A stretch of 64,000 bases of DNA from Halolamina sediminis. Its GTDB lineage: Archaea > Halobacteriota > Halobacteria > Halobacteriales > Haloferacaceae. Of the stretch, positions 58,360-64,000 are shown piece by piece. Made by a program: the position numbers and the translations under genes. The notes below the pieces were generated by a model, which saw nothing but the letters and a program-made list of their open reading frames with translations, did not search any database and was not told the origin of the DNA. The DNA lies in contig NZ_CVUA01000001.1 of the NCBI RefSeq assembly GCF_001282785.1, positions 2,480,001-2,544,000 of the forward strand, given 5' to 3'. Within the stretch, counting starts at the first letter, position 1, and the number at the start of each line of letters is the position of its first letter.

Positions 58360-59166
58360 ATGGCTCGGGACCTCGTCGTCGCCCTTGTCGTCGGTATCCT
58401 GCAGGGCATCTTCGAGTGGCTGCCGATCTCCAGCGAGGGCAACATCACGATCGTCCTCTCCGCACTCGGGCGCTCGCCGGAGGCGGGCGTCGCATTCGCG
58501 CTGTTTCTCCACCTCGGGACCGCCCTCGCCGCGACGGTATACTACCGGGAGGATATCTGGGCGGTGCTCACGCTGCTGCCGACGTGGCGGCCGACCAACG
58601 CCACCGAGGGGGAGTACGCGACGGTCACGTTCCTCGGGATCGGGACGCTCGTCTCGGGCGTCGTCGGCATCGCGGCCTACGTGACGCTCGTCGACGCCGT
58701 CTCGGAGCTCGGCGGCGGGCTGTTCGTCGCGCTCGTCGGCGTCCTCCTGGTGCTCACCGGCGCGTTCCAGTACCTCTCGCAGAATCTCGTCGGGGATCCA
58801 CGGACGCCGACCCCCCTCGACGCGGTGCTCGTCGGCGTCGCACAGGGCGTCGCCATCCTCCCCGGCGTCTCCCGTTCCGGGATGACGACCGGGACGCTGC
58901 TCCTCCGCGGTCACGAGGGGGCGCGGGCGTTCCGGCTCTCGTTCCTGCTCGCGATCCCGGCCTCCGTCGGCGGGGGCCTGCTCGGCTACCTCGACACGGG
59001 GCTGAACACGTCGCTGGTCGCCGCGGGGGTCGCACTCGGCGCGGCAGCCGTCGTGGGGTACGCCTCCATCGGCGCGCTGATGCGGATCGTCGACGAGCTC
59101 CCGTTCTGGAGCGTCTGTGTGGGGCTGGGTGTGCTCGCGATCGCCGGCGGCGTGCTGGTGGTGTAA
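58360..59166 (+). CDS. uppP: Undecaprenyl-diphosphatase-like membrane phosphatase (UppP/BacA)
   Basis: The 268-residue polytopic protein has the two UppP signatures: QGIFEWLPISSEGNITIVL near the N-terminus and ILPGVSRSGMTTGTLLLRG in the middle. UppP proteins hydrolyse polyprenyl diphosphates to recycle the lipid carrier for surface glycans. In archaea, which use dolichol-type carriers, such proteins are thought to serve the same purpose. It is divergent from the glmU-like/glmS operon, with 107 bases between starts, consistent with shared regulation of glycan precursor and carrier supply. Confidence 0.85.
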   Translation: MARDLVVALVVGILQGIFEWLPISSEGNITIVLSALGRSPEAGVAFALFLHLGTALAATVYYREDIWAVLTLLPTWRPTNATEGEYATVTFLGIGTLVSGVVGIAAYVTLVDAVSELGGGLFVALVGVLLVLTGAFQYLSQNLVGDPRTPTPLDAVLVGVAQGVAILPGVSRSGMTTGTLLLRGHEGARAFRLSFLLAIPASVGGGLLGYLDTGLNTSLVAAGVALGAAAVVGYASIGALMRIVDELPFWSVCVGLGVLAIAGGVLVV

Positions 59167-59798
59167 AGCGAGAGGCAGAGCGGGAGGAACGCAGTCCAGC
59201 GACGCTTCCAGATCGCCGAGTTGGGGGTGTAGTCTCCTGACAATGAAACGCCTCAATCGAAGATTCGGAGTTTTTCGAGGACGGCGCTGCGTGACTCCAT
59301 CGATATGGGATCGTGAAGATGATGGTAAACATCGGAATCTGAAACTGGGTGCGCACCAACAGCGACCACGGGGTCCTAAACTGGGGACCACTAGCCGACC
59401 ACGAGAGCGACGCCGTTCCGTGCCTGGCCCACTGCACGGCGAGATCAGTTTCGGCACGCTTCGCAACATCGTCCAACGGGCCGACATCGAGGACTACGAC
59501 GAGTTTTGCTCGTGGATCGACCGGAACAGGTAGCTCACTTCGTCCACTCGCGGATTTCTTCCTGCATGTGGGTCTTCCCGCCGATTCTGTCGCCAGTTCG
59601 GCGGCGAGATCGGGGTCAAATTCGCGAGAGAGCTTGGCCCACCAATGGGTTCACCGCCGTTGTCACCGCTCGCGAGCACCTCTCTCGCTTCCAGTTAGGC
59701 GATACGGTTTGCGACCATCGGTTCCAATGCACCGAGTTCGTCGGCGACGGTATGGGCCGGCAGCGGTTCTTCATCCACCCTCCATTCACCACACAACC
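59167..59798. other. Gap with gene fragments only
   Basis: 632 bases without an intact gene. A plus-strand fragment ends at 59533 (GEISFGTLRNIVQRADIEDY, then DEFCSWIDRN before TAG). A minus-strand fragment reads EPLPAHTVADELGALEPMVA, then NRIA. Both lack starts and look like remains of small genes, as expected next to the broken Orc1-like gene. Confidence 0.4.
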
Positions 59799-60804
59799 AT
59801 GAATATCGACCCGGACAAACTGAAAGAGAACTATCTCCCGAACGCCATGCCGGGGCGGGAGCCGAAACTCCAGCGGATCAGCGACGTGCTCGAACCGGCG
59901 ACCGAGGGCGAGCCGGCTGGCTCGGTGTGGGAGATCGGCCCCAGCGGCGTCGGCAAAACGTCGACGGCGCAGTTCCTCCTCAAAGAGGCTCGCGAGTGGG
60001 GCGTCGACTGGATGTACCTCCCCTGCACGTCGTACACGCGGTGGGGGGCGCTCCAGAAGATCGCTGACAAACACCCAACGTCGATCGCGCGCCCGAACGC
60101 GAGCACGAACGAACTCACCGAGTGGATCGCCGCCGGCGAGCAGCCGTTTGTGGTGATCCTCGACGGGATCGGCGCGCTGGAGGACCCCGAACTGCTCGCG
60201 AATCTCGCCGACGCCGAGTGGCTCTCGCTGATCCTGATCGGCCACAAGCGAGCGAACGCGTTGGGCCAGGTGCCCGATCACGCCGACCGACTACGCTTCG
60301 CGGAGCTCGTGGAGTTCGACCCCTACGACGCGACCGCGCTGTTCGATATTCTCGCTGCGCGTCGTGAGGTGGCGCTCAAACGCGGCGTCGTCGACGACGC
60401 CCAGCTCGAACGCATCATCGCCGAAGCCGAGGGTCGGCGCGGTTCGGCGTCCAAGACCTGCGCTCGGCGGTCGACCTCGGCATCGAGCGCGGCCACACAA
60501 CCGTCGAGTCCGAAGACGTCGACGACTGTTTCCAACGCGCGAACGAGCGCATCCGACAGCAGCAGTTGGAGTCCCTGGGCCGTGAGCATCATCTCGTCTA
60601 TCGGGCGGTCCGGGAGCACGGGCCGCTGCAGCCGGTCGAGATTCACGAGCACTACCAACAGCTTGGGGGTCGCACTCACGGACGACGACGCTGAAGTACC
60701 GGCAGAAACTGGACGAGAACGACCTGATCGAGCCGACCGGCGAGGGCTGGATCGCCGTCGACGAGACGCTCGCGGCGCCGCGTCGGGAAGCGCGGGTTGC
60801 TTAG
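59799..60804 (+). pseudogene. Orc1/Cdc6-like AAA+ gene with two frameshifts
   Basis: The frame from ATG 59799 encodes a AAA+ domain with Walker A GPSGVGKT and an acidic Walker B-like VVILDGIGALED. After about 60440 the reading shifts to another frame giving ARFGVQDLRSAVDLGIERGH, ESEDVDDCFQRANE and the winged-helix start (LVYRAVREHGPLQPVEIHEH). A second shift near 60690 recovers TTLKYRQKLDENDLIEPTGE and ends RVA at 60804. This is the layout of haloarchaeal Orc1/Cdc6-type initiators or related plasmid ATPases. Two frameshifts make it inactive unless sequencing errors are responsible. It stops inside a palindromic repeat. Confidence 0.75.
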
Positions 60805-61467
60805 TGTGTTGGTCTAAGCCACTAGCTTAGCGAGAGTTCGATATCGGCTCGAATACGCCGGCGAGGCTGGCTTTACTTTCACCGGGGTTCGGTCAGGGTT
60901 ATACATGCTGCTCCACAACCCCCACATGCTGCCTGAAACCGGGCAGTATCAAGCAATGAACGTCTAGAGCCGTGGATCTGCGAGAGTGTAACCCCGGTTG
61001 CACTACTCCAAACACCCCGGGAACCAAGCGGTTAATGCGGGTCCACGGAACACAAACAAATGCTGCCTGAGAAGGTAGCGACTGATGGATAAGTCAGTCC
61101 AAAAGGCGATCGCGGCGGGCGGCGTGACCCTGCTGATGGCTGGCCGGCCTTCGGGGTTCACGCTCGTCGCAGCCGCGATCGTCCACGACCTAGTCGCGTC
61201 GGCTCTCGACCGCGTCGAGTTCTAAGCTCGACGCCCTATTTTTCGTGTGGGTGCACGGTGGTTGTGGCGGTGGCTGAGCCGTGCGTTTGATCGTAGGATG
61301 AGCGGAGATAAAAATCTACTCACTACTAACGGGTTTCCACCCCGCTTGTGTAGATTGGCAGCTACTAGGCTTCTACTCCGGATTGAAGCAGTCGCAGCGC
61401 CCTGCCGCGAGCGACGGATTGCTTAGCGTGGTAGTCTAAGCCACTAGCTTAGTGCGTCGGTCTAAGC
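60799..61467. repeat. Three copies of the 21-bp palindrome GCTTAG-N9-CTAAGC
   Basis: Copies are at 60799-60819 (centre TGTGTTGGT), 61421-61441 (CGTGGTAGT) and 61447-61467 (TGCGTCGGT). The first and second lie in 34-bp direct repeats (60797-60830 and 61419-61452) with three mismatches. The first covers the stop codon of the Orc1-like gene. The third covers the stop of the minus-strand gene at 61449. Confidence 0.7.
61085..61225 (+). CDS. Possible 46-residue membrane microprotein
   Basis: The frame reads MDKSVQKAIAAGGVTLLMAG, RPSGFTLVAAAIVHDLVASA, LDRVEF. It has two short hydrophobic stretches and a charged end. It lies alone in the 644-base gap between the Orc1-like gene and the next minus-strand gene; nothing else in the gap looks coding. 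Start ATG 61085. No family recognised. Confidence 0.45.
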   Translation: MDKSVQKAIAAGGVTLLMAGRPSGFTLVAAAIVHDLVASALDRVEF

Positions 61468-62264
61468 AACCCAAGCTCTCGAACTGCAGCGGCCGAGATC
61501 GTCACGCCGTGCTCGCTCGCGGTCGCCGTTTCTCCGGTCACGTCCTCGATCAACCGCGCCACGTCGCGGAAGTACTGCGGCCCGCGATCCGTCTGGATCG
61601 TTCGCGTCCCTTTCCCCTCGTACTCTGTGCCTCGTCCACGGACAAGTATCACGGCGAGATTCAGCTTCAGCACCATCGGCGCGTCGGCAACCCAGTCCGG
61701 CAGTCCATGCACTGAGTCGGCGTTTTTGTCACCCATCGGCGCCCCGGCGACGACCAGTACGCGACCGAGCTTTGTGCTCTGCTGCCCCGGGCGGATCTCG
61801 TCGGCTTGCGCGTCGCCGTCCCGCTCGACGTGCTGATAGCCGACCCCCGCCCACGTCAGCGCATCCTCAATCGCGCCTTGACTGTCTGGATCGTCGGGAC
61901 TCCATGACGGCACGTAATTCTCGGTGACGATCGATCCGAACGCGTAGACCCCGATCACGAGCTCGGCGAGCGCCTCGGTCGTGTCAGTCCAGCCGTCGGC
62001 ATCCCAGCCAAGCTCGCGTGCCACGTCGACGGCACGGGCGGCGTCTGGCTTGCTGTCGTCGTCCACCCACGCCCGGACTTCGCTCCGGGAGATGCCCTCG
62101 AAGTCGTTCGATTGGTCGCTATTGATCGCACTCGCGACGCGCTGGGCGCCCCAGTCGTCGGGTTTCGTGGCAGCTTCGCGGTAGAGTTCGACGGCCGTCC
62201 ACGGGTCTTTGCTCGGGTGGTTGTACGTCCGGGCGAGGGCTTTTGGAGTGATGAGCGGGGGCAT
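61449..62264 (-). CDS. Hypothetical protein, possible LAGLIDADG-like
   Basis: The 271-residue protein has an N-terminal helical part resembling a helix-turn-helix (DFEGISRSEVRAWVDDDSKP, AARAVDVARELGW). The C-terminal part has an internal G-x-F/Y-A-F-G-S-I segment (VIGVYAFGSIVTENYVPSWS) and GAPMGDKNADSVHGLPDWV. This spacing is reminiscent of the LAGLIDADG/homing-type proteins seen in haloarchaea. The assignment is weak. It ends within the third 21-bp palindrome. The 54-base gap upstream separates it from the pilin gene's end. Confidence 0.55.
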   Translation of the reverse strand: MPPLITPKALARTYNHPSKDPWTAVELYREAATKPDDWGAQRVASAINSDQSNDFEGISRSEVRAWVDDDSKPDAARAVDVARELGWDADGWTDTTEALAELVIGVYAFGSIVTENYVPSWSPDDPDSQGAIEDALTWAGVGYQHVERDGDAQADEIRPGQQSTKLGRVLVVAGAPMGDKNADSVHGLPDWVADAPMVLKLNLAVILVRGRGTEYEGKGTRTIQTDRGPQYFRDVARLIEDVTGETATASEHGVTISAAAVRELGLLRPTH

Positions 62265-62318
62265 AGCTGTGGCTGTATGGGTTTTGTGTATAAAGAAAAA
62301 CGGCGTGGGTGTGCCGTA

Positions 62319-62831
62319 TTACTGCAGCGTGACGTCCTGCGACACAATCGTCGTTTCGGACGGCACGTGGATCACCTGAACTGTGTAGGTGGTTCCAGAC
62401 GACAGGCTGCCAGATACACTCTTGTCATCCTGCATTGTGATTGTGTCACCCACACCGAACTCATCATCCGCAGCAGGTGCGGAGCCGTCACCATTCAGGC
62501 TCAGATCGCCACTAGTCCCTGTGATACTTTTTGCGTTGGATCCGTCAGCGTTTCGTACAACGAATCTCAGATCACCCATAACGAGCGCGTCGCCTTGCTG
62601 GTGAGAAAAGACGAACGCGTCGGTGGCGCCAGTTCCAGCACTGAAGTCTGTACTCGAATCACTGACGCCCACACTGCTCTGCGGCGCCTGATTCAGACTG
62701 TCGCCCAGCCCCAGGACGAACGTCCCGATCACAGCTGCCAGAATCACTGTGATGGCAACCATGAGGATAACACCTATGACAGGTGAGACACCACGCTTCT
62801 CTTCTAACATCGCTTTGATTTTCGCTTTCAT
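62319..62831 (-). CDS. Type IV pilin
   Basis: The 170-residue pilin has a class III prepilin leader: MKAKIKAMLEEKRG then VSPVIGVILMVAITVILAAV, with probable cleavage after RG by the archaeal prepilin peptidase PibD. The hydrophobic helix continues to GTFVLGLGDSL. The mature part is beta-rich with Ser, Gly and Asp. An earlier ATG (62933) would add an unrelated extension. No assembly ATPase or membrane platform gene is next to it, so it must use machinery elsewhere. It may form adhesive pili. Confidence 0.88.
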   Translation of the reverse strand: MKAKIKAMLEEKRGVSPVIGVILMVAITVILAAVIGTFVLGLGDSLNQAPQSSVGVSDSSTDFSAGTGATDAFVFSHQQGDALVMGDLRFVVRNADGSNAKSITGTSGDLSLNGDGSAPAADDEFGVGDTITMQDDKSVSGSLSSGTTYTVQVIHVPSETTIVSQDVTLQ

Positions 62832-63174
62832 ATTGACCTTGCAACCCGGCAGTAGGGGCATAATACCGCACATCGACGAGCCCACGACCACCGCGTATAC
62901 TCTCCCTACTTTGTGGGAGTACATAAGGGGCATGGCTTAATTATCACGAGCGAAAATACTGCCCGATGTGACAAATTACCAAAGACAGTGCCGGGGGTAT
63001 TCCCCGGACTGCCGGGTTGTAGGTAAGGCCCCGTACAGGGACCAATAGAACGGATGTGCCTGCCCGATATAACATCATCGGGACAACTATCAAACGAGAT
63101 ACCTTCCAACAGCCCGGCGTCGCCGAGACTTAACACACATCTGCCGTACTCCTGCCGGTAATGGTGGTGAAACT
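62832..63174. other. Intergenic region, no gene seen
   Basis: 343 bases between the pilin start and a small broken gene. It contains the pilin promoter and several short stems (for example GGGGGTATTCCCC near 62993). No protein-like frame. Confidence 0.4.
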
Positions 63175-63340
63175 GTGGTCGAAAAGCGAGCGGACATCAC
63201 CGAGTCCCAAGTCAAGTACCTAGAGCGGGAGTTCGGTGATGAGTGTAAGTCGGACGCCGAAGTCTTCCGAACCCTCATCCGCGAACACAGGGTATGTCCC
63301 GACTACTCGCGCTCGACGAGTACGCCGACGACGTGCCCGA
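63175..63340 (+). pseudogene. Small DNA-binding-like protein, probably frameshifted
   Basis: From GTG 63175 the frame reads VEKRADITESQVKYLEREFG, then DECKSDAEVFRTLIREHR. The typical continuation (SRLLALDEYADDV) lies in another frame beginning near 63294, so one base has been gained or lost at about 63290. It resembles small haloarchaeal ribbon-helix-helix proteins. Its 3' end approaches the convergent GlmU-like gene. Confidence 0.4.
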
Positions 63341-63438
63341 CAGTAGTTGCTCGCACGCGATCGAGAAACAGAACCGACGTATTCTCGCCGTGGGAGTCGC
63401 TTATTCACCCAATTGGCACACGAAATTCGGCGATACCG

Positions 63439-64000
63439 CTACTCCAACCGATCCCGCGTCACCGTCTCGTTCGGTTTCGTCCGCGTTCCAGCCCCCAGCT
63501 TCACACCTGCGTTGAGACTCGTATCGATCCCCGTCTTCGCCCCGTCGCCGACGACGACGCCGAACTTCCGCCGTCCCGTGTCGATCGACTCGCCTTTCAC
63601 TCGAACCCGGACGTGCTCGTCGTCGTGCCGGAGGTTCGCGACAGTGGTCCCCGCGCCGAAGTTCACGTCGGCGCCGAGCACCGAGTCGCCGACGTAGGAG
63701 AGGTGCCCACAGGCGGTGTCGGCCATCAGGATGGAGTTCTTCACCTCGACGGCGTTCCCCACGCGAACGTCAGGGCCGATCACGCTCGCCCCGCGGACGT
63801 ACGCGTTCGGTCCCACGTCCGCGCCCGCCTGCACGACGACCGGTCCCTCGATGTACGCGCCGTTGCGGACGCGAGCACCCTCCTCGACGACGACCGGCCC
63901 GTCGAGCGTCGCACGGGGTTCGACCGTTCCACGGAGATCGCGCTCCAGCCCGTCGAGCAGGTGTTCGTTCGCTTCGAGCAGCTCCCACGGCCGCCCCACG
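63439..64000 (-). CDS. GlmU-like protein, C-terminal hexapeptide-repeat domain (partial)
   Basis: The reverse frame ending at 63439 contains repeats such as GPVVVEEGARVRNGAYIEGP, VVVQAGADVGPNAYVRGASV and ADVNFGAGTTVANLRHD, as in the acetyltransferase half of bifunctional GlmU. The N-terminal pyrophosphorylase half is outside the window. The GAGTTVANLRHDDE segment corresponds to the GlmU active-site region. It could make UDP-GlcNAc together with glmS, or a related NDP-sugar. It is the second GlmU-like gene of the window. Confidence 0.82.
   Translation of the reverse strand, partial: VGRPWELLEANEHLLDGLERDLRGTVEPRATLDGPVVVEEGARVRNGAYIEGPVVVQAGADVGPNAYVRGASVIGPDVRVGNAVEVKNSILMADTACGHLSYVGDSVLGADVNFGAGTTVANLRHDDEHVRVRVKGESIDTGRRKFGVVVGDGAKTGIDTSLNAGVKLGAGTRTKPNETVTRDRLE

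Follow-up and report, generated by a model that had tools for sequence, protein, structure and literature searches.

Palindromic dyads at gene ends in a Halolamina island: putative relic sites of a mobile-element regulator

The stretch of Halolamina sediminis DNA analyzed here (64 kb, in the following the window) carries three copies of a GCTTAG-N9-CTAAGC palindrome next to a broken Orc1/Cdc6-like gene. Comparison of sequences leads us to a tentative explanation, to which we give somewhat less than an even chance: the palindromes may be relic putative binding sites of a regulator of haloarchaeal mobile elements. We favor such regulator sites because members of a plasmid gene family have a site of this type immediately ahead of their start, and we regard those in the window as relics because neither the Orc-like gene nor the regulator gene is still intact in this genome. 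The site class would be TTAG-N9-CTAA, with GCTTAG-YGYGKYRGT-CTAAGY as its form here. Its likely reader would be the product of the plasmid gene, which begins MPN[AP]IKSTGADAV and could act as its own repressor through the dyad that covers the start of its gene. In H. pelagica, the regulator sitting on an array between convergent stops could block read-through and antisense transcription. We infer a single site class for all dyads as well as binding, the reader, autoregulation and the roadblock effect. The array is placed at gene ends, not at a promoter, and in two genomes only, which counts against regulator sites.

If the explanation is true, genes labelled hypothetical on haloarchaeal plasmids would gain a concrete operator and a candidate reader. 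It would further suggest that a single regulator serves separate mobile elements of one archaeon and that operator-type sites can be located at gene ends.

The dyads and the island that holds them

A pattern scan of the window revealed three exact dyads on the plus strand: GCTTAG-TGTGTTGGT-CTAAGC at 60799-60819, GCTTAG-CGTGGTAGT-CTAAGC at 61421-61441 and, with a spacing of 26 bp from the second, GCTTAG-TGCGTCGGT-CTAAGC at 61447-61467. An extra half-site at 60825-60830 (plus strand), not mentioned in the initial annotation, follows dyad 1, and its partner is absent, so that the left copy of the array comprises three half-sites and the right copy four. When two mismatches were allowed, five dyad matches were found in the window, a number reached by none of 100 dinucleotide shuffles. 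Single half-sites are rarer in the 64 kb than base composition predicts (five GCTTAG and six CTAAGC, with 13.4 expected per strand), and seven of these 11 fall within the two copies. The initial annotation had reported the three palindromes, and they are indeed exact, non-random and located where it placed them. It had named scatter over the genome as the observation that would refute its reading; for the exact dyad this was not seen, since the 2.84-Mb genome holds three copies only, all of them here, and the reversed control pattern gave no match.

Dyads extend over two gene ends, as had been noticed before. The stop codon of the Orc-like gene (TAG, 60802-60804) lies inside dyad 1 and that of a convergent gene for a 271-aa protein (61449-61451) inside dyad 3. 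The start of dyad 2 coincides with the stop of what is probably the remnant of another Orc-like gene, its 3' end (61385-61426, plus strand), which was read by eye; a direct repeat (60770-60830 and 61392-61452, 79%) was found in addition. The overlap of stops and dyads is less surprising than it appears, because the dyad itself contains TAG and TAA.

The Orc1/Cdc6-like pseudogene (59799-60804, plus strand) has two frame breaks. It consists of three open pieces in different frames, each of which matches a protein that is intact in H. pelagica: similarity in the first frame stops at 60440, the other open pieces cover 60368-60691 and 60586-60801, and the third reads into the TAG within dyad 1. The window protein is 80% identical to residues 2-213 of the intact protein. 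Walker A is present. Walker B reads LDG, while six relatives and the virus SNJ2 have DE, hence the glutamate has been replaced by glycine. The initial annotation was therefore right to call the gene broken. With the NCBIfam model TIGR02928 (Orc1/Cdc6, cut-off 181.3 bits), both the window piece (84.2) and the intact H. pelagica relative (128.8) score below the cut-off; elsewhere in the window genome two Orc loci score above it.

The pseudogene is part of a foreign island of 4.28 kb (59165-63442), which is inserted between uppP and a glmU-like gene and varies in GC content from 0.52 to 0.68. Homologous uppP and glmU flanks are only 29 bp apart in the Halolamina genome G003. The same junction contains inserts of around 4.4 kb in H. 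pelagica (G006) and around 1.3 kb in G002, neither of which gave a blastn match to the window island. With unlike inserts in three genomes and a nearly empty G003, the junction looks like an insertion hotspot in Halolamina. An integrase site was considered and dropped, as no integrase was seen in the island. Further contents are a type IV pilin-like gene (62319-62933, minus strand; Pilin_N, 3.3e-20) and a 39-residue piece (63175-63291, plus strand), 90% identical, of a small protein shared with the Orc element on contig C30 of H. pelagica. A small 46-aa ORF (61085-61225, plus strand) resembles by eye, in place and type, a small ORF downstream of Orc in G003, and tblastn gave no significant match between the two. 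A hairpin over its stop followed by a T-run (61212-61234, plus strand) is an ordinary terminator-like site.

The four-half-site array, searched with up to three mismatches, occurs in two of 170 genomes of the family, namely the window genome and H. pelagica. On contig C31 of the latter, an Orc-like and a LAGLIDADG-like gene converge with their stops 35 bp apart, and a 47-bp pair of sites spans this gap together with both stops. The Orc-like gene beside this array is intact, and a tyrosine integrase gene is located around 6 kb away. Viral contigs held no match to three half-sites; 14 matches to a loose oriented motif correspond, by our estimate, to about the number expected by chance. Two exact single dyads with unlike cores, one on H. 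pelagica contig C34 (by eye in an integrase-like frame) and one on contig C13 of genome G022 (by eye over an HxlR-like stop), were likewise put down to chance. A literature search brought up no description that we recognized as the GCTTAG-N9-CTAAGC dyad.

Sites at gene starts and a plasmid gene family

Counts of the relaxed exact motif [GC]TTAG-N9-CTAA[GC] compare with the reversed control as three versus one in the own genome and seven versus six in H. pelagica, and remain at or below it in four other Halolamina genomes (one each); the argument consequently rests on the position of the dyads and not on their number. The seven Halolamina genomes together contain 84 dyads with up to two mismatches, which is below the reversed control in each genome (19 versus 105 in the own genome). 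Four of these 84 were examined, chosen by eye for likeness of the core, and two were kept as gene-start sites. One, on H. pelagica contig C24, is the sole dyad with a single mismatch among the matches listed and is followed after 2 bp by the ATG of a 141-aa gene. Its core has eight of nine bases in common with two window dyads, for which 0.12 matches would be expected among 84 sites. The second site is located at 2,562,542 of the own genome. Two of its arm bases are changed, and it occupies the same place at the start of the orthologous gene, which is broken there; its 7/9 core match is not unusual (1.39 expected). ParA-type genes are found around 1 kb upstream at both loci, and no Orc-like frame was found within 12-13 kb around the two sites.

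The oriented cores of the five array sites have a mean identity of 0.53, compared to 0.22 when one of a pair is flipped. Adding the gene-start sites gave 0.59 versus 0.21 for the seven, all of which had been found through their arms. In both cases none of 5000 shuffles reached the observed value. Shared cores need not mean selection, since several of the sites are alike by descent. A refined motif built from the seven sites, and hence made from the very sites that it finds, had six matches with up to one mismatch in 392 genomes, all in the window genome and H. pelagica. At three mismatches it appeared once in each of three other genomes; these matches were dropped as chance, with a reversed control that was not empty (26 and 30 in one genome).

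The gene behind the start sites belongs to a family with tblastn matches in 16 plasmid records. We compared 15 family loci, ten from plasmid records and five from genomes; 14 were scored together and one (L123) was scanned apart. A TTAG-N9-CTAA dyad precedes the gene start by 21-23 bp in 11 of the 14, with 0.0015 expected per 40 bp, although these 11 are not independent because five are Haladaptatus plasmids; plasmids of that genus have the gene in several copies. The own-genome locus, in which one base of the right TTAG/CTAA arm is changed, was left out of the 11. Three of the 15 loci are free of dyads (L132, L134 and L123). Four of the 14 have a second dyad in the stretch from 15 bp upstream to 60 bp downstream of the gene end, just behind or over the stop (L126:3438, L128:2836, L135:2038 and L122:1909), and thus placement at a gene end is not peculiar to the window. 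Elsewhere, the family loci contain three dyads in 81,848 bp. Among the seven Halolamina genomes, the gene is present in the same two as the array, the window genome and H. pelagica, a coincidence of 1 in 21 by chance. Outside the C24 site the arms read GTTAG, including a locus on H. pelagica contig C10, and since the relatives use these arms, GCTTAG sites could be read by a different protein. On contig C20 of H. pelagica we also observed a GTTAG-N9-CTAAC dyad one base different from the C10 start dyad (L142:1501), located 38 bp after the stop of a gene that by eye is of helix-turn-helix-like type.

MraZ is a regulator with a double AbrB fold that binds repeated boxes at its own promoter. A structure model of the plasmid family protein (five sequences, pLDDT 90.9) suggests a comparable, double-AbrB and MraZ-like fold. 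The best five structure matches had Z values of 6.9-7.2 over 93-96 residues and the next row 4.2. Three of the five are titled MraZ and two UPF0040, which we take to be MraZ as well. The similarity is modest (top match Z 7.2, 96 residues, rmsd 3.0; best Foldseek E value 0.039), and we treat the fold as a lead because the Z values are below 8. Pfam gave no match above cut-off for the family protein, and neither this nor the 271-aa protein had a convincing counterpart when solved structures were searched by sequence. The candidate may share its predicted fold with MraZ and, like it, has repeated sites at its own gene start. It differs in being an archaeal plasmid gene with 7-12% sequence identity and in its inverted TTAG-N9-CTAA sites, which also occur at gene ends. 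It is conceivable, though rather doubtful, that the plasmid family is an undescribed group of MraZ-like regulators that bind TTAG-N9-CTAA at gene starts and ends and in this way link their own gene near a partition locus with an Orc-like/LAGLIDADG-like switch that an SNJ2-related element carries at another place in the genome. Binding at convergent gene ends would then represent a regulated, protein-based transcription barrier in archaea.

The convergent gene and the SNJ2-like setting

The convergent gene (61449-62264, minus strand, frame intact) encodes a 271-aa protein of the SNJ2 gp9 family (phrog_14115). Members occur in 147 of 392 genomes of the order, in 22 plasmid records and in virus SNJ2 itself (L040:11731-12519), and 32 of 34 places have a pilin-like ORF within the fetched flank (around 1.5 kb for most). 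Pfam and NCBIfam gave no match above their cut-offs, and the PHROGs match is a family of unknown function. A structure model (25 sequences, pLDDT 93.1) predicts a LAGLIDADG fold, with Z 15.4 to the TliVMA intein (187 residues, rmsd 3.4) and Z 11.8 to WhiA. The fold is thus common to WhiA, LAGLIDADG homing endonucleases and the convergent gene product, which differs by the loss of the catalytic acids: at the catalytic positions, which we assigned from the helix pattern, the first is acidic in none and the second in one of 30 sequences. Together this argues for a DNA-binding protein that would not cut, and it offers a starting point for a virus gene to which the libraries searched assign no function. 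In four loci (L017, L023, L028 and L037) the divergent gap between the gp9-family gene and the pilin-like genes contains by eye a similar GCTTCAAG...GCTGTA.G stretch, a possible operator.

The island resembles the betapleolipovirus SNJ2 in combining adjacent homologues of gp8 (Orc-like) and gp9 with a pilin-like gene. The two viral genes are codirectional, whereas their counterparts in the window are convergent, and the sole [GC]TTAG-N9-CTAA[GC] match of SNJ2 lies elsewhere (L040:4217). According to passages in PMC13107129, SNJ2 replication depends on ORF19 (Rep-Arvir), and orf4-orf10 form a regulatory region for lysogeny and lysis that was deleted from a replicon construct. By the numbering of the SNJ2 record this range includes gp8 and the LAGLIDADG-like gp9. 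Since gp8 sits in a regulatory region that, in that account, the replicon can dispense with, the presence of an Orc-like gene in such surroundings did not count for us as a sign of an origin.

The same setting raises the question whether the Orc-like protein of the element is itself the reader and acts in a transcription switch as in SNJ2, where an Orc homologue is reported to take part in the lysogeny switch (PMC10544981). The array indeed tracks the type of Orc: the Orc proteins of the window and of H. pelagica C31 are 80% identical and the LAGLIDADG-like proteins there 30-34%. Several TTCCGTTC repeats directly follow the stop of the SNJ2 Orc-like gene, before orf7 (L040:13644-13786), and on contig C3 of G003 an ACTTAG-N9-CTAAAC dyad with a CTAAGC close by (L079:4599) lies around 1.3 kb before the Orc-like gene. 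However, none of five further close Orc genes with 50-77% identity (one in G001, two in G003, one on H. pelagica C30 and one in H. rubra) has TTAG-N9-CTAA at its 3' end, and the two gene-start sites have no Orc-like frame around them, so that we consider the Orc-like protein an unlikely reader. LAGLIDADG proteins bind pseudo-palindromes of around 20 bp, and the convergent gene product could instead be a non-cutting, WhiA-like regulator reading the dyads, as its fold, the loss of its catalytic acids and the end of its gene within the array in both genomes would allow. Against this, the 13-kb stretch around a 72%-identical relative on H. pelagica C14 is free of such dyads, whereas the protein on C31, with 30% identity, is accompanied by them, and among 37 gp9-family stretches listed a GCTTAG dyad at the stop occurs in the window and C31 only, which makes this reader quite improbable.

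Hairpins and iterons

Bidirectional terminators and replication iterons, the two resemblances suggested by the initial annotation, are less likely readings than regulator sites. As RNA hairpins the dyads could terminate both convergent genes, a view to which the stops inside the dyads lend some support. The paired arrays fold with -17 to -20 kcal/mol (z -2.0 to -3.5), a single dyad with -7.6 (z -1.2). Termination of 59% of transcripts by a hairpin has been reported from a reporter assay in Haloferax volcanii (PMC7237163), and a gp9-family member in genome G370 has a different inverted repeat, AACTGAG-N11-CTCAGTT, over its stop. No T-run follows the dyads, however; a scan for hairpins with T-runs did not return them, and its loop limit of 8 also excludes the 9-base loop. 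Only one of 27 called gene ends in the window (genes of at least 120 codons, with a GC3 filter) carries such a repeat, and this is the array locus itself, compared to 169 of 2000 random 41-mers. A loop would not need the similar oriented core, and the same dyad precedes a start codon. Shared terminators hence fit poorly and are quite unlikely to be the right explanation. A generic 3' hairpin conserved at Orc ends was rejected as well: among the 34 of 36 loci scored, only two H. pelagica genes, those on C31 and C30, had a repeat that no more than 5% of random stretches from their own locus could match.

Plasmid iterons sit beside Rep genes. The dyads resemble them in being tandem repeats spaced by 26 bp next to an initiator-like gene. 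ParA-type genes in the neighborhood of the other sites would also suit a dead replicon with the dyads as its replication iterons or partition sites. Yet none of the five close Orc relatives has this type of repeat at its 3' end, the same site occurs at a fixed position before the start codon in another plasmid gene family, and PMC10544981 describes the SNJ2 Orc homologue as regulatory. We therefore do not regard the dyads as replicon iterons and expect this explanation least of all to hold. Of the dead integrated replicon proposed initially, what finds support is mobile DNA of foreign origin in decay, with its broken Orc1-like gene and real, non-random repeats; a role of these repeats as iterons is not supported.
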